Shown one piece after another: positions 2,807 through 30,638 of a DNA stretch of 31,459 bases; the stretch's first letter is position 1, and every line of letters starts with the position of its first letter. This DNA is from a virus. The stretch is from positions 1 through 31,459 of IMG/VR virus record IMGVR_UViG_3300029309_000198, one strand, 5' to 3'. A model generated the notes under the pieces. It was given only the letters and a program-made list of their open reading frames with translations. It had not been told where the DNA came from and made no database searches. A program made the position numbers and the translations under genes.

Positions 2807-3042
2807 TGGCCGAGGGGTACGGCTGGGTGTCGCTCGATGAGATACAAGGTCTTATGGCCTCGATGTCTCTTGAGCTTGAAGAAACCCCTGACAAAACGGA
2901 CGAGGTTTTGTACGCCATCATGGGCGACATGTTCAACCTCGACATGCTTGTTGAGGGCGACATGCTCACCATCACGGGGCACAAGTACGACATCTGGTCG
3001 TGGCTCACCTTCTCCATGTGGTATTCGGTTGACGCGTCATGA
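2803..3042 (+). CDS. Hypothetical acidic protein, 79 residues
   Basis: The start at 2803 overlaps the previous stop as ATGA and lies behind GAGGACA (2791-2797), which also supports a second in-frame ATG at 2806. The product is acidic and methionine-rich, with an amphipathic helix near residues 10-25, an acidic middle and a tryptophan-rich C-terminal part. The hydrophobic content is scattered, so no membrane span is predicted. No family is recognised. It overlaps the helicase start by four bases (3039-3042), which suggests coordinated synthesis with the helicase. Confidence 0.65.
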   Translation: MMAEGYGWVSLDEIQGLMASMSLELEETPDKTDEVLYAIMGDMFNLDMLVEGDMLTITGHKYDIWSWLTFSMWYSVDAS

Positions 3043-4475
3043 AGCTCCACGACTGGGTGCTCGACGGGTTCCTTACCGAGTACCAGAACGAAGGGTGGGA
3101 CTTCATGTTCCAGAAGGACGCAATCTTGTGGTGGGCCTGCGGTTCCGGTAAGACGCTAGCTGCATTGTTATGGGCCTCGTCACAATGTGAGTCAGGCAAG
3201 ACGCTGGTCATTACACGCGCCCCTGCTCGACGCCAGTGGCAGCGCGAGGTGTCGCACTACACCGATGGCCGCGCTGTCGTCGGTGAAGGCAGAACTCCTA
3301 TGCCGATGGAGGAGATGCGGGACGCTGACATCTTGATCCTTTCATGGGAGACGATGCCCTACTGGATAGACGCCATCCGCGAGTGGCGCAGACTAGAAGG
3401 CAAGCTCTTTGTAATCTGGGACGAGCTTCATAAGGGCAAGTCTTGGAAGCGAAAGAAGAAGTACCTCGCACGAAACGGCGCGGTCAAGTACCAGTCGGCA
3501 GAGAATCGAGCAGCCGCAGCCGCTGAGATCTCGGGCATGGCATACCGGCGTCTCGGCCTGACCGCCACACTCATCCGCGATAGAGTCGCAGACCTATGGG
3601 CACAGGCGGATTTGGTATCGCCGAAGTTCTTTGGTTCTAACTGGGATTTCGTGCATCGCTACTGCGACGCGAAGCCCGGAGCTTTCGGAGGTCTGGATGT
3701 CTCGGGCAGGTCCAACGAGGCGGAGCTAAAAGAGAAACTAGCAAGAATAGTCCACGTCGTTTCTCGTGAGGAGATGGCGCGGAACCTGCCGCCCAAGCGG
3801 AGACAGCTAGTGTATCTGTCTAAGAGTGACCAGATGAGACCCGCAGGGTTTGCGGCAGACATGAAGCGTGCAGCCAAGAACGGAGCGCAAGCCCTGTTTG
3901 AGATGAAGCTGCTGGAAGCCGCGAGTCGGAAGCGAAACTGGATTGCGGAGACGGCTGCCGATGCCCTCGACGCAGGACAAAAGGTTTGCGTTCTAACTGG
4001 ACGCAGGAAGGACTGTGAGGCCCTCGCGAAGCTCATCACGAAGAAGGCCAAGGCCAACCCAGTCTGGACCGGACACGGCGGCGACAGCACCCAATACAGG
4101 GATTCTATTGTAAAAGAGTACGCCGACCACGATGGTGCGGGAGCTTTCGTTGGAACCACCGATGCATTCGGCGAAGCTATTGATGGATTGCAGAACACAG
4201 ACCTAGTGATATTCGGCCTTCTACCTTGGACACCGGGCCAAGTGACGCAAGCTGAAGGGCGATTCAGTCGTCACGGGTCGAAGCGTTCGGTACTAATAAT
4301 GTACACAGTAGCGCAGGGCACGGTAGACGAGCACGTTGCTGACATCCTTTTGACAAAGCTCCAAGCTGTCGAGGCTGTACTAGATGATAAGGAGTCTGGG
4401 GAGGTGGCGAGCACGCTCGCTGGCGACCAAGATGAGGACGCGATCATAGCTTCAATCTTGAGCTTGTGTTCTTGA
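3039..4475 (+). CDS. SNF2-like superfamily 2 helicase
   Basis: The 478-residue protein has the superfamily 2 motifs in order. Walker A is CGSGKT at 34-39, with K38 the nucleotide-binding lysine. VIWDELH near 125-131 is motif II, written DELH instead of the usual DEAH. LTATLIRD near 174-181 is motif III, and QAEGRFSRHG at 404-413 is motif VI with R408 and R411. The compact two-lobe layout, with no accessory domain, fits phage SNF2-type ATPases thought to unwind or remodel DNA during replication or recombination. It starts at an ATGA overlap with the previous gene. Its stop codon lies inside the first unit of the 11-bp repeat array at 4472-4515. Confidence 0.9.
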   Translation: MKLHDWVLDGFLTEYQNEGWDFMFQKDAILWWACGSGKTLAALLWASSQCESGKTLVITRAPARRQWQREVSHYTDGRAVVGEGRTPMPMEEMRDADILILSWETMPYWIDAIREWRRLEGKLFVIWDELHKGKSWKRKKKYLARNGAVKYQSAENRAAAAAEISGMAYRRLGLTATLIRDRVADLWAQADLVSPKFFGSNWDFVHRYCDAKPGAFGGLDVSGRSNEAELKEKLARIVHVVSREEMARNLPPKRRQLVYLSKSDQMRPAGFAADMKRAAKNGAQALFEMKLLEAASRKRNWIAETAADALDAGQKVCVLTGRRKDCEALAKLITKKAKANPVWTGHGGDSTQYRDSIVKEYADHDGAGAFVGTTDAFGEAIDGLQNTDLVIFGLLPWTPGQVTQAEGRFSRHGSKRSVLIMYTVAQGTVDEHVADILLTKLQAVEAVLDDKESGEVASTLAGDQDEDAIIASILSLCS

Positions 4476-4515
4476 CATGTTCTTGACATCATATTGACAT
4501 CATCTTGACACAACA
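4472..4515 (+). repeat. Four 11-bp tandem direct repeats (TTGACAnnnnn)
   Basis: TTGACA occurs at 4472, 4483, 4494 and 4505, exactly 11 bases apart. The second and third units are identical over 10 of 11 bases (TTGACATCAT). The first unit contains the helicase stop codon. One helical turn per unit would put bound proteins on the same face of the DNA, so an operator or iteron array is plausible. Confidence 0.8.
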
Positions 4516-4536
4516 TCTGGGGGATTGGGTTATACT
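4505..4536 (+). promoter_or_regulatory. Putative promoter at the end of the repeat array
   Basis: The last repeat is a consensus -35 (TTGACA 4505-4510), and TATACT at 4531-4536 is a good -10 box. The 20-base spacer is longer than ideal, so an activator bound to the array might be needed. The next start codon is at 4571. Confidence 0.45.
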
Positions 4537-4570
4537 GACTGCGTCAGCAACGACAACCACGGAGGACAAT

Positions 4571-4900
4571 ATGGGATACGACGCACACATAAACGCCTAC
4601 GCTGCCGTCATCATCAACGTGGTAATGGAGGCGATGGGAGATGCGGAAGGCGACTATGACGGTGGCGGCGTTACCGTTGTGGATGCGACCGCAAAAATCG
4701 CTGACCTTTATCACGACGGCGTGTACTTCCTCGCGGAGGAGCTAGCGTATGAGGTAGAGCACGAACAGTATCGGCACTGGCACAGGCAACCTCGGAGTGC
4801 TTGGCCGCTGTCTCCTTACGTCACCTATATGCCGATCCCTGATTTCTATGTTCGCACATCAGACCTTCAACTCATGTCTTACGTCTTGGATGCGACATGA
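4571..4900 (+). CDS. Hypothetical acidic protein, 109 residues
   Basis: I chose ATG 4571 because GGAGGACA (4561-4568) lies at ideal distance and the longer frame would start inside the repeat array. The protein is acidic, with an alanine/valine-rich helix near residues 10-25, a glycine-rich turn (GGGV) near 32, and histidine and tyrosine residues in the middle. No cysteine motif or membrane span is visible and I recognise no family. It is the first gene after the 11-bp repeats and putative promoter, and its stop overlaps the nuclease start as ATGA (4897-4900), so it probably leads the nuclease-Sak4-SSB unit. Confidence 0.7.
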   Translation: MGYDAHINAYAAVIINVVMEAMGDAEGDYDGGGVTVVDATAKIADLYHDGVYFLAEELAYEVEHEQYRHWHRQPRSAWPLSPYVTYMPIPDFYVRTSDLQLMSYVLDAT

Positions 4901-5718
4901 AGTATATCGACGCAGGCCCATCGCCCGCTGGCTGGAGCAGGCTCTCGAACGTGCTGAAGTGCCCGCGCTATTACGCGCTGAACAGAGAGCACGACCGCAC
5001 GGCTTCGGACGCGCTGGTGCGTGGCTCGCTGATGCACATCGCGCTCGCCCATCACTATGCAGCCATCGGCGCAGAGCAGCACGGCGCCCGAGTCGATTAC
5101 CTCAGCCCCGAGGCTGCGGTCGAGAGGTGTGTCGCCGAGGCGAACTGTGAGCTTCACGACAAGTGGAAGGACAATGTGATTGGCGTGTACCACCAGTACG
5201 CGATGATGTACCCAACCCCAAGCTGGCGCATCCAAGCGGTCGAAGAGATTGTCTCGACCAAGGTCCGCGATGACGTGCGAGATGTCTCGTATGATTACAC
5301 GGCCCGCATCGACCTCATTGTAGCTCACCACGGCAAGCACTACTTCGTGGACCACAAGACGAGCTTCATGATTCTACGCAAGACGTACAACAAGTACACC
5401 TTGTCGGGTCAGTTTCTCGGACAGCAGATGATGGGGCGCGAGATGTTCGGTGACGACTTCGGGGGCGTCATCCTGAACCTCATCGGATGGGATGATAAGA
5501 AGCCTGTTTCTTCGTTTAAAAGGAAAGTTCTGCCTTATGCAGAAAAGTCTGTTGCGCTCTTTCCTGATACAGTTATAATGGGTGAGAGGATGATAGCCGA
5601 CTTCAGCGGGAGGGATGCCTTCCACTGGCCCGGTGCTCATCGGGAGACAGCGTGCCAAACAACCTATGGCCCCTGTAGTTTTTTTGAGACCTGTAAAAGA
5701 GGAGGACACTATGAGTAA
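4897..5718 (+). CDS. PD-(D/E)XK nuclease with apparent Fe-S cluster (RecB/Cas4-like)
   Basis: The 273-residue protein has the RecB-family nuclease pattern: RGSLMH near 42-47 (motif I with H47), a glutamate pair at 116-117, D139 in ARIDLIV, D152-H-K154 (the D/E-x-K triad) and a following Gln-rich helix. Cysteines C22, C253, C260 and C266, one near the N-terminus and three near the C-terminus, match the 4Fe-4S arrangement of Cas4 and AddB-type nucleases. The family degrades or trims DNA ends. Next to a Sak4-like ATPase and an SSB-like protein, it likely works as the exonuclease of a phage recombination module. CRISPR adaptation is unlikely, since no array or cas1/cas2 is present. It overlaps the next gene by 8 bases. 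Confidence 0.85.
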   Translation: MKYIDAGPSPAGWSRLSNVLKCPRYYALNREHDRTASDALVRGSLMHIALAHHYAAIGAEQHGARVDYLSPEAAVERCVAEANCELHDKWKDNVIGVYHQYAMMYPTPSWRIQAVEEIVSTKVRDDVRDVSYDYTARIDLIVAHHGKHYFVDHKTSFMILRKTYNKYTLSGQFLGQQMMGREMFGDDFGGVILNLIGWDDKKPVSSFKRKVLPYAEKSVALFPDTVIMGERMIADFSGRDAFHWPGAHRETACQTTYGPCSFFETCKRGGHYE

Positions 5719-6631
5719 GCTACCGTTTGTATTCGGCATCGTGTATGCCGCGCCCAAGAAGGGCAAGACGCTCAACCTGATCAAAGCTGACCCCAGCGCG
5801 TTGATCATCACGCCGGTCGGAGGAACATCCTGCGCCGAGTACCTTGGGGTGACGCCCGAGACTTGGCTGGTCAAGCCCGACACTCGCGTGGACAAGATCA
5901 TCGAGGTCATCAACCGGGCGTCCAAGTCCAAGAAGTTCCGCACGATTATCGTGGATGACTTCAGCCTTATCGCTGATTCAGAGCTTCACCACATCCAGAC
6001 CAACCCGCGCAACGCTGGGTTCAAGGCCTTCGATGTTTTGAACAAGACCATGTACAAGCTGAGGGATGCGGCACGAAACGCCGAATGCCATGTATTTCTG
6101 GTTATGCACGAGACGCCTCCTCGCGAGGTGACCCGTGACAACAAGACCGTGTTCATCCCCGGGCACCCGTCCATCACAGGATGGAAGCTCCCCGAGAAGA
6201 TTCCGGCTATGGCTGACTTCGTGGTCCGCGTCAAGTACGACGCCAAGGCCGTCAGCAACTGGCCATATGTCTACCAAGCCGCGCCGACACCTGATTACAT
6301 TACAGGTAGCCGCTTGGCTATGATGCCTGCTTACTCCCCAACTAACATCAGGGAGATCATGCTTGCCACGGGTTACGACCTGCCTCGACCCAAGGGCATG
6401 GAGTGGATGGACGATGTGGCGGAGGCTGTTTGTCAAGAGCTTGTAAAGGCGGAGGCCAAAGACAAGCGATCAGTTAAGAAGTGGTTGTCCAGCGATGGCC
6501 CTGCTTTGGCGGAGACATACAAGGACAAAGACCCAAGACACGTCCGCTGGGCAATCAGCGACGGTATCGATCGGGCGGTACTTCGCCGCCACAAAACCAA
6601 CCTGTTGACCGATTTTATCGCCAACTTTTAA
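5711..6631 (+). CDS. Sak4-like RecA-fold ATPase (single-strand annealing/recombination)
   Basis: ATG 5711 follows AGAGGAGGACACT, the extended binding site seen in several genes here. The 306-residue protein opens with a beta strand and Walker A (APKKGKT near 14-20). Walker B is IIVDD at 79-83, and VFLVMHET near 135 is a likely sensor strand. This is the layout of phage RecA-like nucleotide-binding proteins of the Sak4 type, which bind single-stranded DNA and promote annealing with an SSB partner. The SSB-like gene directly downstream strengthens the call. The C-terminal 70 residues are lysine-rich and less familiar. Walker A is unusual in having two lysines before GKT. Confidence 0.8.
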   Translation: MSKLPFVFGIVYAAPKKGKTLNLIKADPSALIITPVGGTSCAEYLGVTPETWLVKPDTRVDKIIEVINRASKSKKFRTIIVDDFSLIADSELHHIQTNPRNAGFKAFDVLNKTMYKLRDAARNAECHVFLVMHETPPREVTRDNKTVFIPGHPSITGWKLPEKIPAMADFVVRVKYDAKAVSNWPYVYQAAPTPDYITGSRLAMMPAYSPTNIREIMLATGYDLPRPKGMEWMDDVAEAVCQELVKAEAKDKRSVKKWLSSDGPALAETYKDKDPRHVRWAISDGIDRAVLRRHKTNLLTDFIANF

Positions 6632-6648: not shown

Positions 6649-7116
6649 ATGGCTGTTATTTTTAGAATAAACACGGATGACATGAACAGCGGCAAGCTGG
6701 AAGAGCGGGGCATCTACAAGGTGGAGGTCAAGAGCCTCAAGCCTGAGGTCAGCAAGAGCGGCAAGGACATGGTGAATGTTGCAGCCGAAGTTGTTGAGGG
6801 TGAGCACAGGGGCAAGATGGTGTACAAGCGCATCATGATTCCCACCCCTGAGATGAAGTGGCCGCGTTTTCGCTGGCTAGAGATGTTGGGGTCGTTCGGT
6901 CATTCGGTAGAAGAGGCCAAGGCGATCATGGATGACGGTGTGGACGACGAGCAGCACATCCTCGGACAGCAGGGATGGATCGAGTTTACCCCTGCTGTTG
7001 GCGAAGGCTCGTTCTCGGAGACGGAGTGGGTGACCGAGAAAGAAGCCAAGTCTCGCGCGGCTATCGTAGCCGAGGCAGCCGCCGCTCGCGCCGACATGGA
7101 AGACGTGCCCTTTTAA
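6649..7116 (+). CDS. SSB-like single-stranded DNA-binding protein
   Basis: I set the start at ATG 6649, behind GAGAGGGAGAG. The 155-residue product has a beta-rich N-terminal half (YKVEVKSLKPEVSKSGKDM, then VNVAAEVVEG) resembling the OB-like fold of phage DUF669/SSB-type proteins. It ends in an acidic tip, DMEDVPF. An acidic tail finishing in proline-phenylalanine is the protein-interaction tip of bacterial and phage SSBs. It probably coats single-stranded DNA and recruits replication and recombination partners such as the adjacent Sak4-like ATPase. It is the last gene before the 205-base gap, so it probably ends this unit. Confidence 0.75.
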   Translation: MAVIFRINTDDMNSGKLEERGIYKVEVKSLKPEVSKSGKDMVNVAAEVVEGEHRGKMVYKRIMIPTPEMKWPRFRWLEMLGSFGHSVEEAKAIMDDGVDDEQHILGQQGWIEFTPAVGEGSFSETEWVTEKEAKSRAAIVAEAAAARADMEDVPF

Positions 7117-8046: not shown

Positions 8047-8109
8047 CAGGGCGCCGACTTCTTTGTGGTTCATTTTCATCGCCTCAACATATTAACAAGA
8101 GGGATACTT

Positions 8110-10572
8110 GTGGGATTTAACAGAGCAAAATGCAGCAGGTGCCCATTGCGTAAGTATTGGCAGGCCGAGGGCAGGTGGGAGAGAGTGGACTTTCTTCACA
8201 ACGAGTCTGATGTTTTGATCTTGGGCGATGCACCCTCAAAGCAATCCTCCGCTATGGGCAGAGCGTGGGCGGATACCCACGGCGTAGAGATGAAAGATGC
8301 GCTGGAGTCTGCTCGGGTCAAACCTCACAATGTAGATTACGGATACATTGTAGGCTGTCGCTGGCCAAAAGACGACCCCCGCATGTTTATGCAGATTTTA
8401 AAGCGGAGGAATCGTAAGCTCGCCTCAAAAGGCAGGGCGCTGGAGCTATCCCCGATAGAAGCGTGCCGAGAACATGTAGCAGAAGAGATGGCTAAGTATA
8501 AAACCGTGGTCACCTGCGGGCCTATTGCAACCAAGGCAGTGCTATCCGGCAACCCCTCGCTGGAGGCCGTCAGAGGCGGCCCTACCGTCGTGAACGGCGT
8601 GAAGGTACTACCTACATACCATCCGTCGCAAGTCGCGCTACAGAGGCATCTCCGGCCCGTATTGCACAGCGACATCCAGAAGGCGATCCGTCACCATCGA
8701 GACCGTCTTAGGTGGCCCGAGCCTGTTGTCCGTTACAATCCTCCACCGGATATTGTGCGGGAGTTTTTTGCGGATGCCGCGAAGAATGACTGGTTGTTGT
8801 CCTACGACGTTGAGACTGACGGAATCGACGCGCTCAACGCAGACTTGAGGTGCATAGGCATTGGAACCGAAAGCGAGGTTTTAATGCTGGGATTCCTTAG
8901 TATTGATGGAGTTTCTAGATTCTACTCGCCGGAAGATGAGGAGGTGATTAAAAGCCTGCTCCGCGAGGTGTTTGATGAGCGATCTAAAGTTCGGATTTGT
9001 GGTCACAATGCAGGTTACTTTGATCGGCTTGTTGTGGAGCAGCATCTGGGCGTTACCCCTGCCCCTCTTGTAGATACCCTGCTTCTTCATAAGCTTGGGG
9101 CGTCGGAGTACAGGCATAGCCTCGGCTTTGTCGGGTCGGTGCTGACCGATGTCCCCGCTTGGAAGGCGGACCACGCAGGCGTCACAGCCAAGACAGATGA
9201 AGAGCTTCATGAATACTGCGCCACCGATGTTGCGGTGACCGCCCGCATTGTACAGCCTTTGCTTGAGATGGTGTACGAACGAAAGCAGACGCATCTGATC
9301 GACAAAGACCTGCGGATGCAAAGCTTGTGTGCTGGTATGCGGCGCATGGGGATTAGAATCCATGAGCCTACCCGCTTGGCGCATGAGGAAGCCCAGACTG
9401 AAGCAGCAGTCAAGTGGCGCACGAAGTTACAACGCATCCAGCCAGATATAAATCCCAACTCTCCCGCCCAACTAAGGCATCTGCTTTTTACAAAATGGGC
9501 GCTGCCTCCGCATGAGTACACCCTCTCGGGCGAGCCTTCGACGAGCGTGGCCTCTTTACGCGCTCTCTCGATTAACCCCTTGGCTGACGGTGAACAGCGC
9601 GAGTTCTTGCAGGCGCTCCGCTTCTACCGTAGAGCCGAGAAACTATTGTCTACTTATATAAGAAAGTTCGCGCCGGATGCTGGCGTCGTAAAGGATGGAT
9701 ATGTTTACCCCGACTACAACTCACATGGTACAGTTACCGGGCGGCTCTCTTCGTCTAACCCTAACTTCCAGAACATCCCATTCAACCTACGAGATATGTT
9801 CATCCCTCCAGACGGTTGCGTCTTCGTCGGTGCGGACTATGACCAGCTTGAGCTTCGCTTTGCAGCCGCCTTGGCAAACGCCAAGCACTACCTCGACGCC
9901 TTCGAGAAAAAGCAAATCGACCCCCACAACCTCACCGCAGACCTCATGTTCGGAGAAGTCTTCTGGAATGCGGAAGGCGCGCCGGATACCAAGATGGGCA
10001 AAGGCAAGGGCCAGTTTAAGCAACTGCGTAACTTGGCCAAGACAATCTGCTTTGCCTCGCTATACGGTGCGTCCGCGCCTAAAGTTCATGAGATAATCGG
10101 AAGGGCCGAGGACGACGACGGCAACATGCTGTATGCCCACTACGACCTGCGGCAAATCCGTGTACTGCATCGGCGTTGGAAGTCTAAGGCCCCGGAGTTT
10201 GAGCAGTGGTGGAAGAACACTTTGGACCAGTTCAAGATGGACGGGTACATCGAGGAGGTCGTTTGGATGCGCCGCCGCTACTTTGCCGAAGAGGATTACA
10301 ATGCAATCCTAAACTTCGGGGTGCAGGCAGGCGGGTTTGCGGTTGTCGCCATGTCCATGTTGGAGCTTGTTGAGAAGCACATCCCCTTCGACTTTGACAA
10401 TAAGATTGGCTTAGTAAATCAACTGCACGATGCCGTACTGCTATCGGTGCCTGAGGAGCGTGCCGAGGAGGTTAAGCAGATCGTTGACGAAACCTTGACA
10501 CGCAAGGTGGACGGTCTCGATGTTACCTTCAGTGCGGAAGCAGAGATAGGAATGACTTGGAAAGATGTCTAG
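8110..10572 (+). CDS. DNA polymerase A with N-terminal uracil-DNA-glycosylase-like domain
   Basis: I chose GTG 8110, behind AGAGGGA (8098-8104), giving 820 residues; GTG 8065 lacks such a site. Residues 1-180 match family 4 uracil-DNA glycosylases: Fe-S cysteines C8, C11, C83 and C119, LGDAPS at 38-43 and YHPS at 170-173. A 3'-5' exonuclease follows with D233/E235, HNAGYFD near 299-305 and an ATD segment near 380. The polymerase has TGRLSSSNPNFQNIP near 550-565, motif A with D576, motif B with R640, K644, F648 and Y652, and motif C with H773-D774. E. coli Pol I has glutamate after that aspartate; here it is A775. The residue equivalent to Pol I 762 is phenylalanine. This is the replicative polymerase of the phage. 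Confidence 0.9.
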   Translation: MGFNRAKCSRCPLRKYWQAEGRWERVDFLHNESDVLILGDAPSKQSSAMGRAWADTHGVEMKDALESARVKPHNVDYGYIVGCRWPKDDPRMFMQILKRRNRKLASKGRALELSPIEACREHVAEEMAKYKTVVTCGPIATKAVLSGNPSLEAVRGGPTVVNGVKVLPTYHPSQVALQRHLRPVLHSDIQKAIRHHRDRLRWPEPVVRYNPPPDIVREFFADAAKNDWLLSYDVETDGIDALNADLRCIGIGTESEVLMLGFLSIDGVSRFYSPEDEEVIKSLLREVFDERSKVRICGHNAGYFDRLVVEQHLGVTPAPLVDTLLLHKLGASEYRHSLGFVGSVLTDVPAWKADHAGVTAKTDEELHEYCATDVAVTARIVQPLLEMVYERKQTHLIDKDLRMQSLCAGMRRMGIRIHEPTRLAHEEAQTEAAVKWRTKLQRIQPDINPNSPAQLRHLLFTKWALPPHEYTLSGEPSTSVASLRALSINPLADGEQREFLQALRFYRRAEKLLSTYIRKFAPDAGVVKDGYVYPDYNSHGTVTGRLSSSNPNFQNIPFNLRDMFIPPDGCVFVGADYDQLELRFAAALANAKHYLDAFEKKQIDPHNLTADLMFGEVFWNAEGAPDTKMGKGKGQFKQLRNLAKTICFASLYGASAPKVHEIIGRAEDDDGNMLYAHYDLRQIRVLHRRWKSKAPEFEQWWKNTLDQFKMDGYIEEVVWMRRRYFAEEDYNAILNFGVQAGGFAVVAMSMLELVEKHIPFDFDNKIGLVNQLHDAVLLSVPEERAEEVKQIVDETLTRKVDGLDVTFSAEAEIGMTWKDV

Positions 10573-10581
10573 GGAGGACAC

Positions 10582-11076
10582 ATGAGGAAGAAGCCGGACC
10601 ATAACATCAAGGCATGGTCGCCTACTAGGCGGCAACTTATGGAAGAGTTGGGTACAGCATCGGACAGAAAGCTAGGCCTGAAATACTCTTTGAGTATGGA
10701 GAGAGTGCGGCAGTTGCGGCGCGAAAATGGTATAGCATCGTACACGAAGAACAAGAAGCGCACCCCTATAAGCGATTTGCAGGAGAAGGTTCAGAGTCTA
10801 GATGATGAGGTTATACACCTACACAATAAGATTGGCGGAGTTGCGTCTAGACTAGACAGCTTGGAGAATAAGATCAATAAGTGCTTGTGGGAAGTACATG
10901 CGCTAGGGCACAGCGAAGACAGGCTGCGTCAACTTATTATTGACGAGGTGTCTCGGATGAAGCCTGAGCCTCTGCCTGTGAAGAAGCAGGAGAAAACCAA
11001 AAGACGGCGATTCGCAGACCATATACCCGCTGGCTTTGCCTATCAAGAGTTTTACCACAATCAGGAGGACACATGA
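10582..11076 (+). CDS. HTH protein with coiled coil, 164 residues
   Basis: ATG 10582 follows GGGAGGACAC. Residues 12-55 read W-SP followed by LMEELGTASD, then a basic helix ending RVRQLRRENGI. This is the layout of a homeodomain/SANT-like helix-turn-helix found in many phage and bacterial proteins. Residues about 65-120 have heptad-spaced leucine, isoleucine and valine and form a coiled coil. The C-terminal part is lysine/arginine-rich. A dimeric or tetrameric DNA-binding protein is likely, either a regulator or a DNA-organising factor. It overlaps the winged-helix gene as ATGA (11073-11076) and lies in the operon leading to the mini-SMC ATPase. Confidence 0.7.
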   Translation: MRKKPDHNIKAWSPTRRQLMEELGTASDRKLGLKYSLSMERVRQLRRENGIASYTKNKKRTPISDLQEKVQSLDDEVIHLHNKIGGVASRLDSLENKINKCLWEVHALGHSEDRLRQLIIDEVSRMKPEPLPVKKQEKTKRRRFADHIPAGFAYQEFYHNQEDT

Positions 11077-11267
11077 GCATTAACAAGGGAGATGCAGTTC
11101 TATCCGCCGTTCCTTCGGATGGGTGGTATACCACAGATGACATACGAAACCGCAGCGGATACTCGCCGCACACGCTGGATTACTGGCTAAAGAAGCTTGT
11201 CAAGCTCAACAAGGTCGCCCGGAGGCAAATTGCGTCTACGAGGGAGAACCTGTGGCGAAGGATTTAG
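11073..11267 (+). CDS. Small winged-helix-like protein, 64 residues
   Basis: Its start overlaps the previous stop as ATGA and follows AGGAGGACAC. The protein has the helix pattern of a small winged helix: AVLSAVP, then WYTTDDIRNRSGYSPHTLDY for a helix-turn-helix, LKKLVKLNKV for the recognition-side helix, and a short basic wing ending in NLWRRI. Such proteins bind DNA as repressors or accessory factors. No longer domain is present and no family can be named with confidence. It overlaps the next zinc-ribbon gene by 16 bases. Confidence 0.65.
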   Translation: MSINKGDAVLSAVPSDGWYTTDDIRNRSGYSPHTLDYWLKKLVKLNKVARRQIASTRENLWRRI

Positions 11268-16751: not shown

Positions 16752-17054
16752 CTATGGTACTGTGTCAAGGGTTTGCCCTGCAAGAGCAGGATTCATTGCG
16801 GTGTTTGCAAGCATCATGGTGTCATGTCCGAGAAGGCCCCCGATGAGAATCAAGCCCAAAACTATGGTTTGAGGATTCTTGAGCGCCGTACCCCAATCAA
16901 ACTGATTTCGTTTTGCGATTTCAATAAGTTGAGCTTCGATGCGGTCTAGTGTCTTACCGGAATGCTTTTGTTCGTTTTGAACGATGGCAAGGGCCTCGCG
17001 GATGCCTCCTACTTGGTCTTCGAGGACTGTGACGCGCTGATCTAAGTTGGACAT
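16752..17054 (-). CDS. Coiled-coil protein with C-terminal membrane span, 100 residues
   Basis: The first 50 residues have heptad spacing typical of a coiled coil (VTVLEDQVGGIREALAIVQ). Residues about 63-80 (PQTIVLGLILIGGLLG) form one hydrophobic span, and a short polar tail follows. This resembles XhlA-like or holin-like phage proteins, which have a coiled coil followed by a membrane helix. It is placed directly after the giant internal-virion gene, sharing a base with that gene's stop as TAATG. It may be a membrane-anchored partner of the ejection apparatus or a lysis protein. The sequence does not distinguish these. Confidence 0.6.
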   Translation of the reverse strand: MSNLDQRVTVLEDQVGGIREALAIVQNEQKHSGKTLDRIEAQLIEIAKRNQFDWGTALKNPQTIVLGLILIGGLLGHDTMMLANTAMNPALAGQTLDTVP

Positions 17055-20000
17055 TATTCCACCATACCTTCTTTCCCCGCCTTCTTGTATTCGCGGGTTA
17101 GCTCTCGTCGATTTGCTTTAGCGGTGTAGCTTGCAGTTTCATTTCCGTGGAAAAGGTAAACTCTTTGTATGTTCATTAACTGACCTAATGCTACTAGTCT
17201 CTTTTCTACTTCAGATTTGTCCAACCCAGCAAGGTAGGCGCGGGTCTCGATTGGCGTTAAAGCGCCTAGATCCGTACCAAATACAACGGAGGCCATAAGA
17301 CGTAAACGGTTGGCCTCTCGCCCAGCCATGTCTAGCAGCCCGGTCTTGATGAGGTTGTCATTAGATCTGATCTTGCCGTTTGTTTTGGTCAAACCTAAAG
17401 AATCGCTCATACCAAACAGGCGGGCAAACTCAAGCTCTGCTCCGGTCAACGGCTTTCCATAGGCTGATTTTGGGGGTACAGGCAGCCCTGCGAGCTTCTT
17501 CAGAGAATCCTCGAACGCGCTTTCCGCCAATGGGTTCATCATGTTGACCATTTCTTCCAGTATAAAGGAAGCGCCTTGTCGTGTGTCAAAATCCACATCG
17601 GTTCTTAGGCCCGCAATGGCTGCCCCCGATACAAGGTGGATCATCTCCGAGTACATGTTTTGAAACTCAATAGACGTAAGCCGCGTAGATACTGTGCGGG
17701 CGTAGTTTACACGTTCGCGGCCTAGCTCCGACATAAGCCGCTGGCCTTCTGGGGTCAGGGTTCCTACGTCAGAAATCATGTAATCCATAAGCCAGTCAGG
17801 GATTTCTAGCTCTGCGGCAATCTGCGCCTGCTCTTCAGGGGTCAGGACTCTAGAGGGATCGACATACTGCTCATGAAATACGACGTTAGCGAATCGGCTC
17901 AAGGCCTCCATCCGCTGCTGCTTGGTGTTGAAAGTAACGTGCCTTTTAGCGTAGTCCATCAAGTCGTCGGACCCGTGAAACAGGGCGTTAAAGTTCTGTA
18001 CGATCGCGTTCTTAGAGAAGACGTAGAAGGCACTAAATCGGGCAATGTACTCCGTCTCAAACTTACCCACACTGGTCTGGTAATCATAGAGCGCCCTAGA
18101 CATCATGTCGGCAGCCTCGTCCCTCGACATCCCCTTGTTGAAGCGGAGATGCGCGTAAAACTGAATACGCTGACGCCGCTGGGCGGCCCGCATTGTGATG
18201 TCCATGATGTCGAAGTATTCGTCTTTAGCTTCTTGGAGAGTGCGTATTGCGGGATTGGTGGCCCTGATGCCTTTCTCGACTAAGCCAATGTCGCGGTCGG
18301 CGGCCTCCCGAAGCTCGACTCCCCAGTCAGTGTGCCGGATACTGTCGTCGATCCCGTCTTCTAAAGCCTCGTTCATCAGCTTGGCAGGGTTTACTTCGAC
18401 AGTCTCACCGTTGGCTTTCTTGTAAACCTTAACCTCATCAGCCCCTTCGAGAACATCGTCGATAAATCGGTTAAAGCTCGCATCAAACAGCGAGGGCAAT
18501 CTCAAGCCCACGTCTCCCGCCGCTTCAGCAGCCTTGCGGGTAGCATCTTGTAGTCTGGTTCCAATGTAAGGGACGTATCCAAGTGACCCGTACATCGAGA
18601 TCACAGCCGCCTCACTTATGCTTAGTTCCGTCGCCATCTGCGAAAAGTCACCCACGGAGTTGTTCATAAAGAATCCGGGGTTAGGCACCAAGAAGCCGCC
18701 AAGGACGTGCCGTTTCCACAGTCTAATCATCTTTTCGGCCCCGCCCGCTATAGCCGCAATCAATGGGTTCTGTGCTGCCGCGTCAGACAAGTTTTCCGTC
18801 AGCTTCTTAGAAATGCCGTCGAGGTTCCTTGAAAACGTCTCAAGTTTAAAGCGGGGGACAATCCGCATATTGCCGTTAGCGTCCATCGAGTGAGCTACTA
18901 GCTCCATGAAATCATCAGAGGCCTGTCGGACGTTGCTGGCCAAATCTTTCTTATACGCCTGTTGAATCAGATTTGGACCAAAACGCAGGTAAGCGTCGGC
19001 AACATCTAGAAACGAAAGCTCCGGCTCCCGCATTGTTAGGTCTTTAATCGGAACATCGTCAAAAGTTCCATCGGGGTTAAGCAGTCGCCCCTTTGTTACG
19101 CCGTCTTCGGTAATAATCTCCATCAACTCTCGCGAAACAACAGAGTTTCCTTCCGTAGCGGCCTTCTCTACCGATGAAAGCGCGCCTCGCTTTTTGCCTG
19201 CGTATTTTGTGGTGTTGGTAACACTGCGATAAAGCTCTACATCGGACTTGAGGACCACCATGTCGCCTTCTTCTAGCGTTTGGCGGAACGGTATTGATTC
19301 TTTGCCTCTCCCGATAAATCGTTCGTAGGCTCGGATTGTGCGGACATTTAGTCCGGCCCCGACTAGATTCGCCATGCGAGACGTGTACACTTCTTCGACA
19401 GCGGCACCCAGCACAGACTTATAAGACAAGGCTAAATCTTTAGTGGGAATGTCTTCAAACTTAGCCGCTACCCGTGGAATCGGCTTGCCCGCTACTCGCG
19501 TTTCACCGATTGCGTCAAAAGCAAGCCGCTGCATCCCTTCGAGAGTCAGGTCTGCCGGTGCGTCTTTGAGTTTCTCTACAAACTTCATCACCGCGCCACC
19601 AGCGGCGAGCGCCTCATCTCTTGTGGCGGCGTCCGATATAAACGCTTTTACAAAGGCTTCAAGAGAAACAGATTGCTGGTTTTTAAAGAACTCTTCGCGG
19701 GCGGCTTTGTTTCTCGGGATGACCCGCGCAATGTTGAGGAAGCCCTCCTTGGCTGTTTCAAAGAACGACGACCCCATGCCGATGTTTCCGCTGACTTCAA
19801 CTCCGGGGCGGAGAATCACCTTTTCGCCAGAGGTTAGATACTGCTTGATTAGGTCATTACGCTGGCCCTCAGGGGCGTAACGCACGATCAGGCTCAAGTC
19901 TTGGCTGCTGGCGCGGGCGAAACGTGCGACCCGCTTGGCAATCCTGTCCACCGATTTTGAGAACCTCGGCCCTAGAAGCGCGACCTTGGTGTTAAAAATC

Positions 20001-23000
20001 GTACCGATTCTGCGTGTGATTAGGTCGCCGACACGCACCCTTGTAGCAGCATACCAAGTCTTAGGGTCAACAAAAGCGTCTACCACCAGCCCAATCTTAA
20101 TCTTGTTCATGGTCGCAGGAGATGCCCAGATGCGCTCCATTAGATCGGGGCGTATGATCGCCTCAAGGAAGTCTTTATCGGACAGAGAGGCCAGATCGTC
20201 CGCCGCCAACTTCCGGAGATCACCAAGGCGCTCTGTGTTTTCTAGAATCTCAGGAACGCCCTCGCCGCCCTCTACGAGCTTCCGAATGGCGTCTCCACCC
20301 TCTTGAGTCTTAGCGATGTCAATCGCCGAGGCCATCTTGTTAAGGGTCTGCAACATAAAAGAAGAGACATCTGCCTGCGCTTCCAGTGCTTTGGGGCCTA
20401 GCTGTACCTCATCGCCCACAGCCTTTCCAACCTTTTCCGCCATGACGATTTCATCTGAAGCCCTTCGTATAGCCGCATCGGCGTCTTGCGCCGCTTGCTG
20501 TAGCTCCTCTATGGCCTTCGTTTGATCTGCCTTCATAGTCCTTAGCGCCGCCGCGTTGATGCCTTTTGCTCCGGCTCCGGCCAGCAAGTCGTCAAACGCT
20601 TTTACACCTTTCGGGGTAAGGCTTGCCCTGACATTGGCAAGCGCGTTTTCAAGAGCCTTTTGTGCCTTGGTTTGCTTCTCAAGGGCGGCGTCGGCACGCT
20701 TTTTTAATCTGGCTTGGTGCTTAGACAGAGGCGTTGATATTTCTTTCTGGTAAAACTTTGCGACCTTATCCCGCAGGGCCTTCTTTGCCGCACGGGCCTC
20801 CTTTGCGGTCTTAAACTTCTTGGTCTGAAGCGTGGCGATTTCATTGCGAAGATTGGTGGCGTCGAGGTCTCTGTTTTTAAAGAACGCCTTGGCGTCATCA
20901 CTGTCGAGGTACGCTTCTAACTTCTTAGACTTGCCTGTTCTAATGTACTTATCAAAGGCATCATCATCGACCATGGCGCGAGCGGTGGCCATTGCAATGT
21001 GATCTGCTTGTGCTTTTTTCTGGAAAGCTGTTGCCCTGTTCAGTGAGGCTTGTAGGCCCCGAAGGTCGTCGCCGGACGCGGCAATGGAGTCAAGCACAGC
21101 CTTGTTGACGGCTTCCGCAGCCTCCGCGTCAGTCTTGGCCGCTTTGGCCTTTTCCATGTTTTCTAGCGCGTTCGCCCTATTCTTTACAGCAGATTCTGCC
21201 CTCCGCTTAATGCTGTGCGTCTCGCGCCTAATCACATCACCAAGGCCTGTTGCTTGGCCGCCATATTTTGTCCCAGCGTCATAAGCCATCTGCTGAAGAA
21301 TCACACGGGCTGTTCCCGATCTGTCTTTTTTTGCCGCATCTTGCAGGGCATCTGCGATGTTAACCGGATTGGCTCTCTGCTCTTCTGTTAGTTCATCAAC
21401 CGCCCTAAGCAGTACATTTTTGCCTTCGTCGAGGCGGTCAATGTGACGCAAGCCAGCTATGCGCTCTGCCGCCTTGAAGCCTTTGCCTACGGCCTTTCCC
21501 GCTTTGCCCGCAAAGGGCAGTCCGTAAAAAACGTCCGGTTCTAGAATCATGACCCCGAACATGGGAACCCCGAACATTATTGCTGCGGCAGTAGGATTTG
21601 CTTCCCCGAAATCATCAAACAGCACCGGCCCTGCTTCCGTTAAGAGCCTGCCCGAGTTGTCGGTGGTAGTTGCGATTTCTTCTACAAGACGATCGCTGTT
21701 CCATATCTGCCCCATGCGCCGGAGAATCCAAGCTCCTCGACCCGTCGCCTCGTCACCAAACTCGCGGACGTAATCTTTGTGTGCGAGGTGATACGCGGCC
21801 CCTACTGCCTCTGTAGGCGCATATCTAAAGATGGAGTCGGTAGCGTTGGCTACCCCTCCGTCTGAAATGTAAGTAGCGGCGATGCCCTTCTCGGCCACCT
21901 GCTGCGCCTCCTCGCCCTTTCTGCCTATAGTTCCGGCGATTTGCCTGTGAGGCAAAAATGGAGCAAGTAGTGGCTTGAGAATCGGAATCGTAGATATAGG
22001 CCCGAGGATGCCCGTGCCGTCGAGGTAGTTTTGAAGCGCCTCGTCATTTCGACGGTAGACAAATGCGGGGGTATTCCTCTCGATGCGGGAGATGTCGCCC
22101 CTTGCGAGGCCTTCAGCTTCCGATCGAATCTCGTCTCGCTCAGATTCGCTAAAACTAAGCAGAGGCTTGTTCTTCGTAAGCTTCTGGATGTAGTGGGCCT
22201 TAGCGGATGTATACGCAACATCAAGGTCAATGCCCTTGGTTTTACCCGTAGGGTCAACAAAAAGGGGCTTGTAAACGTCCATAGCCAGCGCGTCTTTCTG
22301 GGGCCGGTACGCATTGCTAAGGTATTTCTTTCGCTCCGAGGGACTGTCGAAGGCAAACTCTGCAAACTCATCTGTTGTTGGTGTGTCGGTAAGCCCGAGA
22401 GAGACGCTTCTATATAGCTCTGGGTCAGACGCATCAGAGTATAGAACCTGTTCTGCCCCCGGCTTTAGATGGGACGCCTGTTGCTCATCAAAGCCAGTGC
22501 CTGTCATCTTGGCCGCGCCTGCCAACTTGCCCTTAACAATGCCCACAGAGCGGTATTTTGTCTTTCGGTTAGCCGCCTCGTCTTTTAGCCTCTGTTGATC
22601 TGCATTGTAAGCCTCCGCGTCTTTGCGGAAGTTCTTTTTGAGGTCTTCGAGGTCTTTATACTCGCGCCCAAGCTGCGTCATAGACATGACGTTGAGGGCC
22701 TTAAACTCATCCTCGCCTAGCTTTTCATGCTCTTCTTCTCGGAGCGCATGGCCGACGATTGTGCTGAGGCGCTTCTGTCTTACCGAATCGTTAGAGAGCG
22801 TTTGTTCTTTGGCTAGAATCATATCAAGCGCATCTTTTTGCTGAGGAAGCATCGAGATGCCCTTGTCGTAGGCTGCCTGCTTGGCTTCTTGAGACGGCAT
22901 CCGGGTCCGAATAGAGGCTGTCTCGACCCCTGCTGTTCGGCCCTCTGTGGCAGGCTGCATCGCCTTAGCAGCGGCGTTGCCTTTTTCCGCTTGGACTCTG

Positions 23001-23140
23001 ACGTACTCGTTTAGCTGGTCGGGAGTAAACTTGATGAACTCTTCGTAGCTGGGCCTCTCAAAGTTAGGCTTTGTCGGCTCCGGCGGTGCAGCGGGAGCTT
23101 CAGTAACCTTTGGGACTTCTGGAGCAGTCTCTTCCGCCAT
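17054..23140 (-). CDS. Giant internal virion (ejection-type) protein, 2028 residues
   Basis: A single open frame of 2028 residues. The first 25 residues are acidic and proline-rich. Hydrophobic stretches occur near 377-400 (GILGPISTIPILKPLLAPFL) and near 510-550, where Gly-rich segments could insert in membranes. About 620-920 is a long alanine/lysine-rich coiled-coil region. Near 1470-1500 another hydrophobic segment contains VPNPGFFMNN. Near 1680-1710 the segment ALYDYQTSVGKFETEYIARF, followed by FYVFSKNA, matches a feature I recall from large internal proteins of marine phages. This fits a podovirus ejection protein that crosses the envelope with the DNA. No transglycosylase or virion RNA polymerase signature was found. 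The start follows AGGTCATC. Confidence 0.75.
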   Translation of the reverse strand: MAEETAPEVPKVTEAPAAPPEPTKPNFERPSYEEFIKFTPDQLNEYVRVQAEKGNAAAKAMQPATEGRTAGVETASIRTRMPSQEAKQAAYDKGISMLPQQKDALDMILAKEQTLSNDSVRQKRLSTIVGHALREEEHEKLGEDEFKALNVMSMTQLGREYKDLEDLKKNFRKDAEAYNADQQRLKDEAANRKTKYRSVGIVKGKLAGAAKMTGTGFDEQQASHLKPGAEQVLYSDASDPELYRSVSLGLTDTPTTDEFAEFAFDSPSERKKYLSNAYRPQKDALAMDVYKPLFVDPTGKTKGIDLDVAYTSAKAHYIQKLTKNKPLLSFSESERDEIRSEAEGLARGDISRIERNTPAFVYRRNDEALQNYLDGTGILGPISTIPILKPLLAPFLPHRQIAGTIGRKGEEAQQVAEKGIAATYISDGGVANATDSIFRYAPTEAVGAAYHLAHKDYVREFGDEATGRGAWILRRMGQIWNSDRLVEEIATTTDNSGRLLTEAGPVLFDDFGEANPTAAAIMFGVPMFGVMILEPDVFYGLPFAGKAGKAVGKGFKAAERIAGLRHIDRLDEGKNVLLRAVDELTEEQRANPVNIADALQDAAKKDRSGTARVILQQMAYDAGTKYGGQATGLGDVIRRETHSIKRRAESAVKNRANALENMEKAKAAKTDAEAAEAVNKAVLDSIAASGDDLRGLQASLNRATAFQKKAQADHIAMATARAMVDDDAFDKYIRTGKSKKLEAYLDSDDAKAFFKNRDLDATNLRNEIATLQTKKFKTAKEARAAKKALRDKVAKFYQKEISTPLSKHQARLKKRADAALEKQTKAQKALENALANVRASLTPKGVKAFDDLLAGAGAKGINAAALRTMKADQTKAIEELQQAAQDADAAIRRASDEIVMAEKVGKAVGDEVQLGPKALEAQADVSSFMLQTLNKMASAIDIAKTQEGGDAIRKLVEGGEGVPEILENTERLGDLRKLAADDLASLSDKDFLEAIIRPDLMERIWASPATMNKIKIGLVVDAFVDPKTWYAATRVRVGDLITRRIGTIFNTKVALLGPRFSKSVDRIAKRVARFARASSQDLSLIVRYAPEGQRNDLIKQYLTSGEKVILRPGVEVSGNIGMGSSFFETAKEGFLNIARVIPRNKAAREEFFKNQQSVSLEAFVKAFISDAATRDEALAAGGAVMKFVEKLKDAPADLTLEGMQRLAFDAIGETRVAGKPIPRVAAKFEDIPTKDLALSYKSVLGAAVEEVYTSRMANLVGAGLNVRTIRAYERFIGRGKESIPFRQTLEEGDMVVLKSDVELYRSVTNTTKYAGKKRGALSSVEKAATEGNSVVSRELMEIITEDGVTKGRLLNPDGTFDDVPIKDLTMREPELSFLDVADAYLRFGPNLIQQAYKKDLASNVRQASDDFMELVAHSMDANGNMRIVPRFKLETFSRNLDGISKKLTENLSDAAAQNPLIAAIAGGAEKMIRLWKRHVLGGFLVPNPGFFMNNSVGDFSQMATELSISEAAVISMYGSLGYVPYIGTRLQDATRKAAEAAGDVGLRLPSLFDASFNRFIDDVLEGADEVKVYKKANGETVEVNPAKLMNEALEDGIDDSIRHTDWGVELREAADRDIGLVEKGIRATNPAIRTLQEAKDEYFDIMDITMRAAQRRQRIQFYAHLRFNKGMSRDEAADMMSRALYDYQTSVGKFETEYIARFSAFYVFSKNAIVQNFNALFHGSDDLMDYAKRHVTFNTKQQRMEALSRFANVVFHEQYVDPSRVLTPEEQAQIAAELEIPDWLMDYMISDVGTLTPEGQRLMSELGRERVNYARTVSTRLTSIEFQNMYSEMIHLVSGAAIAGLRTDVDFDTRQGASFILEEMVNMMNPLAESAFEDSLKKLAGLPVPPKSAYGKPLTGAELEFARLFGMSDSLGLTKTNGKIRSNDNLIKTGLLDMAGREANRLRLMASVVFGTDLGALTPIETRAYLAGLDKSEVEKRLVALGQLMNIQRVYLFHGNETASYTAKANRRELTREYKKAGKEGMVE

Positions 23141-29543: not shown

Positions 29544-30638
29544 TTATGGGGTGCCTGCGCCGGTGACGACGAAGTTAGAACGAAGCTGCGTGGTATGGAG
29601 GCCCATCATGAGCACCAACTCGTAGCGGAAGATATCTTGGTCGGGAATACGGAACGGTCCACGGAGAGCGAAATCGCCCTTCGTTTCCATGTTGCCATCA
29701 TGGCCAAGGGTGAACAGGTGCCAAGTCGGAGTCTTGAGACCGTAAATGATACCGTCTTGCGCGGCAGTGCTAAACAAGTTGGCGTCGGCTGCGTCCTTAG
29801 CGGTAACGTCAATCGCATCGTCGAGGAAGAAGTCAGCTTCGAGGAACTTCACGCCCTGACGAACCAGTGGTGGAGCCTTGTCGCCTTCAACCTTGACCAC
29901 GCGGACTTGATCGTCCAAGTCGTCGATGTAGTTGAGGTAAGAGGACTCATCGCCGATCATCAAATCGACTGGACCCATAGTCTTGCCTTGGCGCGATGCG
30001 GCGAAGTACGCCTTACGCATTTGGCTACGGCCGTTGACAGCGAACGAGCCGATGTCTTCGTACTGGTTGTTCCAGCCAGCGATTGTGCCTTGAGTCAGGC
30101 CGTGGATGGTCTTGCCTGCCGCTGCCTGTCCTGCAATGGAATCCTGTTGCATGATGCCGCTGCGAGCGACACCGTCTGGGGTAAACTGCGCGTTACCGTT
30201 GAGGGTAACAAAGCCGCCAACACCTTTGCCGTTTCCTGTTCCAAGCTGATGCGAGATCCGCTCGTGGAAGTCAGACAACGCCAACTCTGGGTAGTGCTGA
30301 AGGATTCGTGCGAGGTCCATCTCGCCATTGGCTTCAGCCAAGTCCTTGCCGGGAACGTCGAACGCATAGATGAGGCGCGGGGCAACCACGTTTCCTCGGT
30401 GCGCGTTTTGTGTACGCCCACCAGCGATGACTTCCGAACCAGTAGTGACTTGCGTCACGTTACCGGGACCATCGGTGACAACAGCAAACTCGCGCTTCGG
30501 ACCCTTCAGGGCGCCTCGCTCAAGGTTGCCGTTCAACATTACTTTTTCCATCAGCGGGTGGAACTTGACGAACAACTCGCTGTATGACGGCATCAGCTCA
30601 TTTAAAGCAGTTGCCAATACGTCAGGTGAAATAGCCAT
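29544..30638 (-). CDS. Major capsid protein (HK97-fold likely)
   Basis: 364 residues, the usual size for a phage major capsid protein. The N-terminal helix (LATALNELMPSYSELFVKFH) leads to a beta region with REFAVVTDGPGNV near 70. A long central domain with MDLARILQHYPELALSDFHE near 127-146 could be the spine helix. The C-terminal part (DGIIYGLKTPTWHLFTLGHD and later FRYELVLMMGLHTTQLRSNF) has the strand layout of the P and A domains. The start overlaps the scaffold stop by one base (TAATG) behind AGGAG. The scaffold gene immediately upstream and decoration gene immediately downstream support the call. I cannot place it in a specific capsid subfamily. Confidence 0.85.
   Translation of the reverse strand: MAISPDVLATALNELMPSYSELFVKFHPLMEKVMLNGNLERGALKGPKREFAVVTDGPGNVTQVTTGSEVIAGGRTQNAHRGNVVAPRLIYAFDVPGKDLAEANGEMDLARILQHYPELALSDFHERISHQLGTGNGKGVGGFVTLNGNAQFTPDGVARSGIMQQDSIAGQAAAGKTIHGLTQGTIAGWNNQYEDIGSFAVNGRSQMRKAYFAASRQGKTMGPVDLMIGDESSYLNYIDDLDDQVRVVKVEGDKAPPLVRQGVKFLEADFFLDDAIDVTAKDAADANLFSTAAQDGIIYGLKTPTWHLFTLGHDGNMETKGDFALRGPFRIPDQDIFRYELVLMMGLHTTQLRSNFVVTGAGTP

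Follow-up and report, generated by a model that had tools for sequence, protein, structure and literature searches.

The window analysed here is an entire IMG/VR contig of 31,459 bases, in which four copies of the hexamer TTGACA follow each other in tandem at the end of a helicase gene. The question raised by this locus is what such an array does at this position and what kind of protein would read it.

Four phased repeats precede a -10 element

TTGACA starts at 4472, 4483, 4494 and 4505 on the + strand, exactly 11 bases apart, and 20 bases (4511–4530) separate the last copy from a TATACT hexamer at 4531–4536. The stop codon of the helicase gene, TGA at 4473–4475, falls within the first unit. 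The starts of the hexamers and of TATACT, and the presence of the stop codon in the first unit, had been given in a preliminary description of the locus and were found to be exact. The combination TTGACA-N5-TTGACA occurs three times in the window, each time at the array, compared to a mean of 0.01 in dinucleotide shuffles, and Tandem Repeats Finder gave the array the highest score of the window (61, with a period of 11 and 3.7 copies). A better notation for the repeat is a conserved motif of 7 bp, (C)TTGACA, followed by 4 variable bases; only the units of arrays that are close kin have spacer bases in common. The parts of the locus are listed below. Gene calls follow a simple longest-ORF rule and the promoters are predictions; promoter positions such as -60 to -44 assume that the -10 element occupies -12 to -7.

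3039–4475, + strand: SNF2/DEAD-type helicase gene, ending inside the array
4471–4477, + strand: putative operator unit 1, CTTGACA, hexamer at about -71 to -66
4482–4488, + strand: putative operator unit 2, CTTGACA, hexamer at about -60 to -55
4493–4499, + strand: putative operator unit 3, ATTGACA, hexamer at about -49 to -44, 31 bp before the -10 element
4504–4510, + strand: putative operator unit 4, CTTGACA, hexamer at about -38 to -33, 20 bp before the -10 element
4531–4536, + strand: predicted -10 element, TATACT
4543–4551, + strand: GTCAGCAAC, kept just past the -10 element in most close-kin arrays of this locus; probable transcript start region, judged from the sequence
4561–4565, + strand: GGAGG, predicted ribosome-binding site for the next gene
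4571–4900, + strand: first downstream gene, 109 aa, no family; other genes occupy this place in relatives
4897–5718, + strand: PD-(D/E)XK nuclease gene, the first of the replication and recombination genes
5705–6631, + strand: AAA_24 ATPase gene
6649–7116, + strand, as the ATPase gene: DUF669 protein gene

Units 2 and 3 stand where the upstream and the downstream half-site, respectively, stand in all relatives, and unit 4 is an extra that is found only in the three-, four- and nine-unit arrays of the closest kin of the window. The bases preceding the -10 element are GGT and not TGn, the latter being present in several relatives (G003, G021 and G022). A scan for canonical sigma-70 promoters, with -35 and -10 elements 16–18 bp apart, detected none between positions 3000 and 5000, and the 20-bp spacer is therefore a real departure from the canonical arrangement. 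The earlier suggestion that such spacing points to a possible need for activation is supported.

The promoter presumably serves the replication and recombination genes beginning with the PD-(D/E)XK nuclease gene, and the AAA_24 ATPase and DUF669 genes are presumably on the same transcript. The gene directly after the array (4571–4900 in the window) varies among close relatives (L104, L105, L107, L399 and L402) and the nuclease gene lies directly behind the array in distant ones, so that the region downstream of the array has the appearance of a gene-insertion spot behind a constant promoter. Elsewhere in the window, positions 8065–10572 encode a family A DNA polymerase with N-terminal uracil-DNA glycosylase and 3'-5' exonuclease domains in one protein, and the late strand carries an open reading frame of 2028 residues (17054–23140) that is conserved throughout the family.

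The array is retained at the helicase locus of related phages

A helicase search of IMG/VR yielded ten loci with 83–99% identity, and a helicase profile search yielded 33 loci, down to 33–41% identity. The family of the window is referred to as group A. In these relatives the array recurs in the same place, just past the helicase stop codon, and with the same period, and it is retained down to 38–40% helicase identity (L256, L413, L415–L422 and L424). This recurrence supports the proposal, made from the window alone, of an array of operator units that are spaced by one helical turn and fixed in position relative to the promoter. The number of units differs: four were found at L103, L104, L105 and L110, three at L111 and the distant L415, nine at L112 (where one step is 15 bp and the others 11 bp), and two at L107, L108, L401–L405 and many distant relatives (L256, L413, L416–L422 and L424). 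The 5-base spacers TGTTC, TCATC, TCATA and TGATT come in different orders in near-identical phages, and TTGACA hardly changes, a pattern suggestive of slippage or unequal recombination, with the hexamer under selection.

Two kinds of exceptions are informative. In L106, with 85% helicase identity, the array and the -10 element are both lost, and the ribosome-binding site of the next gene follows directly after the helicase stop codon. L412 and L423 do not have the pair but carry an ordinary promoter instead, TTGCAC and TATACT separated by 17 bp. Pair and promoter thus behave as one module, in which the pair seems, as far as these sequences tell, to stand in for a -35 element.

The contig is without a close relative among phage records. 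The array locus had no DNA match in known phage records, the helicase and the polymerase matched known phages at about 25% identity only, the structural protein at 29547–30638 had no match among known phages, and the consensus promoter gave no convincing match there.

Other group A promoters carry the pair without a -35 element

Further pairs were found before other genes in G001, G003, G020, G021, G022 and G023. In every case with a called -10 element, a TATAAT-like hexamer followed the last TTGACA at a distance of 31 bp (for example G001:705, G003:9441, four promoters in G022, and promoters in G020, G021 and G023), which equals 20 + 11, i.e. one unit beyond the distance of 20 in the window. 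The region that G001 retains at 705 is cut off by the left end of the window. No -35 element is present at 17 bp in these promoters; that region is often C-rich, and TGn precedes the -10 element in several of them. The idea that the last unit of the array serves as an ordinary -35 box is not supported by this arrangement, nor by that of a second phage group (group B, see below), where the pair is accompanied by a separate -35 element at 17–18 bp.

The same promoters bear on two further explanations. One is that an initiator binds the units as iterons of a replication origin, a possibility also raised in the preliminary description and in line with tandem repeats that adjoin a helicase gene upstream of replication genes. 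However, pairs stand before several separate promoters within one genome, always in gene orientation and at a fixed distance to the -10 element, the array is absent altogether in L106, and the GC skew computed around 4.5 kb displayed no switch; an origin is therefore highly improbable. The other is that the array is the operator of a repressor. Unit 4, at -38 to -33, overlaps the -35 region, and a protein bound there could block the polymerase, but the core pair that is conserved sits further upstream (-60 to -44), and the group A promoters would be weak unaided since they have no -35 element. We consider repression quite unlikely.

The same pair precedes promoters of unrelated marine phages

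An IMG/VR-wide scan for three-unit TTGACA arrays gave about 100 matches. This set as a whole was discarded as uninformative: among unrelated contigs the periods 9, 12 and 14 were as common as 11, indicating that most such arrays are ordinary minisatellites and that only the set phased to promoters is informative. Long tandem arrays of TTGACA with no visible -10 element in phase were seen in L010, L013, L055, L085 and others. When pairs followed by TATACT were collected from IMG/VR, the distances peaked at 17 bp, which represents ordinary -35 elements, and at 31–33 bp, with few at 22–30 bp. The 31–33 bp peak consists of the family of the window and a second phage group, group B. By our reading of their sequences, the group B contigs, which reach about 200 kb, appear to encode GroEL-like and DNA polymerase III alpha-like proteins. 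At the BLAST level groups A and B have one family in common, and this in a single group A record. Both groups are metagenomic contigs, and they occur together in some samples, as would fit with hosts in common.

Because group B was first found through the motif, it was sampled anew without use of the motif, through homologues of a MoxR-type ATPase, which gave 80 loci and 1.26 Mb. In this sample TTGACA-N5-TTGACA pairs of period 11 numbered 281 on the gene strand and 3 on the opposite strand, with up to 12 pairs per locus. Other periods from 8 to 16 gave at most 33 pairs; the highest of these values was obtained at period 15, a signal that comes from the second half of the pair together with the -35 element. 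The distance from the pair to the best -10 element was 31 bp in 60 cases, 32 bp in 143 and 33 bp in 38, other distances totalling 11, so that 241 of the 252 pairs with a called -10 element lie 31–33 bp before it. The consensus of 213 unique group B promoters is CTTGACA-TYYN-CTTGACA-N8/9-TTGAC, in which a C precedes the second hexamer in 92%.

Close and distant relatives within group B differ in what occupies the place of the pair. Two loci with about 80% MoxR identity (L447 and L480) carry GTGACA-N4-GTGACA with a period of 10, and in more distant relatives (60–71% ATPase identity) the place is taken by long A-tracts, the -35 and -10 elements being the same. In L483, L489, L490, L495, L498 and L499 the A-tracts stand directly upstream of TTGAC-N17-GATAAT in the manner of UP elements, and such A-tract promoters were seen at many sites within one phage. 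A-tracts between -40 and -60 are known to act as UP elements for alpha-CTD (PMC2988021). The pair thus stands where these relatives have a recruitment element, and this favours activation.

It could also be argued that RNA polymerase itself reads the phased hexamers, by docking of sigma region 4 or alpha-CTD and with no extra protein, given that TTGACA is the -35 consensus and that the pair, at -44 to -60, lies where distant group B phages have A-tract UP elements. At 31–33 bp from the -10 element, however, the pair is too far away for sigma region 4 of the same complex to reach, and alpha-CTD prefers A/T-rich DNA (PMC2988021) and not TTGACA. Moreover, the flanking C (92% at the second half-site) and the pyrimidines of the spacer also appear to be read. 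Reading by the polymerase alone is accordingly regarded as unlikely.

Search for the binding protein

We searched the phages for a regulator that could read the pair. Trans_reg_C (PF00486) was not detected in 22 phage records from groups A and B. HTH_17 proteins were found only in group A, where an HTH_17 gene adjoins a long gene in every record covering that region (G002, G003, G021, G022 and G023). Sigma-region-4-like proteins (Sigma70_r4) were, of the two groups, found only in B, and they also occur in A-tract phages without pairs (G037, G039 and G041). When 73 group A families were compared with 63 group B families in 4,599 profile comparisons, the similarity was limited to generic HTH folds. 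The HTH protein at 1909–2373, previously put forward as a candidate binder, is absent from G002, G004 (a partial record) and G023, all of which keep the pair, and it was rejected for this reason. Two other proteins of the window were rejected as not conserved in all pair-carrying relatives: a small protein at 10582–11076, with a sigma-4-like recognition helix by eye and no Pfam support, and a MerR-like protein at 11073–11267 that scored below cut-off. A small SWIM zinc finger protein (G006_79501, G040_158969) seemed at first to track the operator: it occurs in many of the group B phages that carry the pair, and three phages without pairs lack it. As a group B binder it was rejected, being absent from group A; in addition, the motif search misses it in several pair-carrying group B records, some of which are partial.

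Host genomes were also examined. No copies of the whole group B promoter were found in 84,980 species genomes, and exact matches to the bare operator in these genomes numbered 48, compared to about 45 expected by a rough calculation. Among 385 genomes from the class of a marine alphaproteobacterial cell, 5 exact operator matches were obtained as opposed to about 9 for the control. The only promoter-like matches in the genome scans came from a phage-like piece in a WOR-3 MAG (CP070664.1, 2,846,434 bp). This record contains two group-B-like promoters, small phage-like genes and runs of N, and the piece is possibly phage DNA joined by assembly. The sequence CTTGACACTCACTTGACA recurs in Streptomyces and Micromonospora genomes (L363, L367, L369, L388, L393 and L394); most copies lie before genes in a comparable setting, and they may represent an unrelated actinobacterial element. 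The opposite strand of TTGACA contains TGTCA at an 11-bp period. PhoB in the E. coli sense was nevertheless rejected as the binder, because the Pho box of E. coli pho promoters replaces the -35 element and, relative to the promoter, points the other way than the pairs described here.

These results have to be weighed against an activator encoded by the phages themselves, acting on the same operator and with the same activating effect; it could be a protein of unrecognisable family, or HTH proteins differing by group, HTH_17 in A and the sigma-region-4-like protein in B. Such an activator would fit with the lack of a detected host regulon and with the presence of the HTH_17 gene in all group A records that cover the region. 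It would also account for the change of operator among close group B relatives, from TTGACA with period 11 to GTGACA with period 10, since co-evolution of a fast-evolving regulator with its operator would produce differing operators in close kin. The binder could also be one of the many conserved phage proteins that lack a known fold. Nonetheless, no family beyond the generic HTH folds links groups A and B, the sigma-4-like gene is also present in phages that have A-tracts and no pairs, and the gene content of group B revealed no regulator that tracks the operator. We regard a phage-encoded activator as a realistic possibility, though one that probably does not apply.

A model for the array

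The reading we prefer, to which we give about an even chance as a whole, is that the array is an activator operator on a sigma-70-type promoter, read by a protein of the OmpR/PhoB type that is most likely supplied by the host. Its parts differ in strength. Function as an activator operator is well supported by the anatomy and conservation of the element and is very probable, an OmpR/PhoB-type reader is plausible by analogy, and a host origin of the reader has a modest lead over a phage-encoded one. The host is the most likely source because unrelated groups share the operator and no specific regulator gene. What the sequences show directly is the array, its conservation, its phasing to the -10 element and the lack of a common phage regulator; binding by a protein, the activating effect, the family of the protein and its source are deduced from these.

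According to this model, the operator would be joined to a sigma-70-type promoter that drives replication and recombination genes, and a DNA-binding protein would assemble head to tail on the 11-bp units (CTTGACA plus a 4-bp spacer), all of which face the same side of the DNA. The position of the essential pair, about -60 to -44, would be that of a class I activator or of an UP element bound by alpha-CTD, and the protein on the pair would recruit RNA polymerase to a -10 element that has no properly spaced -35. In the lineage of the window the pair would have grown to four units; one of these lies at -38 to -33, so that contact of the protein with sigma region 4 would be possible as well.

The element defines a class of promoters found in marine phages that are unrelated to each other, and standard promoter searches miss this class since the -35 element of the core promoter is wrong or absent. 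We tentatively suggest, as a rather unlikely extension, that in both marine lineages most early-type promoters have become tuned to one and the same host regulator of the OmpR/PhoB kind, and that in one lineage the operator has multiplied to arrays of up to nine units. Phage transcription would in that case be tied to the signalling state of the host, e.g. nutrient stress. If the binder is a host response regulator, the phages would read the physiological state of the host through a dedicated operator at many promoters, which would provide a handle for linking uncultured phages to their hosts. If it is phage-encoded, the operator could serve as a bait sequence for finding a new activator.

Comparison with known systems

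The promoter design shared by these two unrelated marine phage groups appears to be undescribed, as literature searches retrieved no description of such a promoter class. The CII site of phage lambda, TTGC-N6-TTGC, flanks the -35 element and has a period of 10. It resembles the present element in being a direct repeat read by a phage transcription activator, but the pairs described here have a period of 11 and lie upstream of the -35 element (in group B the pair ends 8–9 bp upstream of it), and no CII relative was seen.

The early promoters of T4, with an UP element, and its MotA-dependent middle promoters likewise combine a good -10 element with an extra element upstream or instead of the -35 (PMC2988021). 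MotA recognises a single box, 12 bp from the -10 element, whereas the present element is a phased direct repeat at 31–33 bp. The A-tract UP element matches the pair in position but not in sequence, and in distant group B relatives A-tracts are used instead. A parallel with respect to the supposed reader is the PhoB control of the cyanophages S-PM2d and P-SSM2, which also involves marine phage promoters with direct-repeat operators; in S-PM2d, host PhoB binds phage genes and has been linked to their induction (PMC10976474). That control concerns only some genes, the box matches are weak and the binding of the host regulator is established, whereas here the operators are nearly identical and stand at many promoters of unrelated phages, and the host factor is what we infer.

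In geometry the array agrees with the operators of the OmpR/PhoB family, all known examples of which are direct repeats (PMC4832192). The Pho box consists of 7 + 4 bases (PMC4415409), and PhoP of M. tuberculosis binds cooperatively only when the spacer is exactly 4 bp and binds arrays of three and four motifs more tightly than pairs (PMC4832192). CTTGACA-N4-CTTGACA likewise repeats a motif of some 7 bp in direct orientation, with a spacer of constant length and an 11-bp period, and it too has grown into longer arrays. The E. coli (CTGTCAT-N4), S. coelicolor (GTTCACC-N4) and M. tuberculosis PhoP operators share with the present array the 7-bp plus 4-bp direct repeat and its period, as well as runs of two or more units (PMC4415409, PMC4832192). 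The differences are that the pair here lies upstream of the -35 position and does not replace it as in E. coli pho promoters, that the half-site is CTTGACA, that arrays reach up to nine units, and that the operator is placed on most early-type promoters of a phage.
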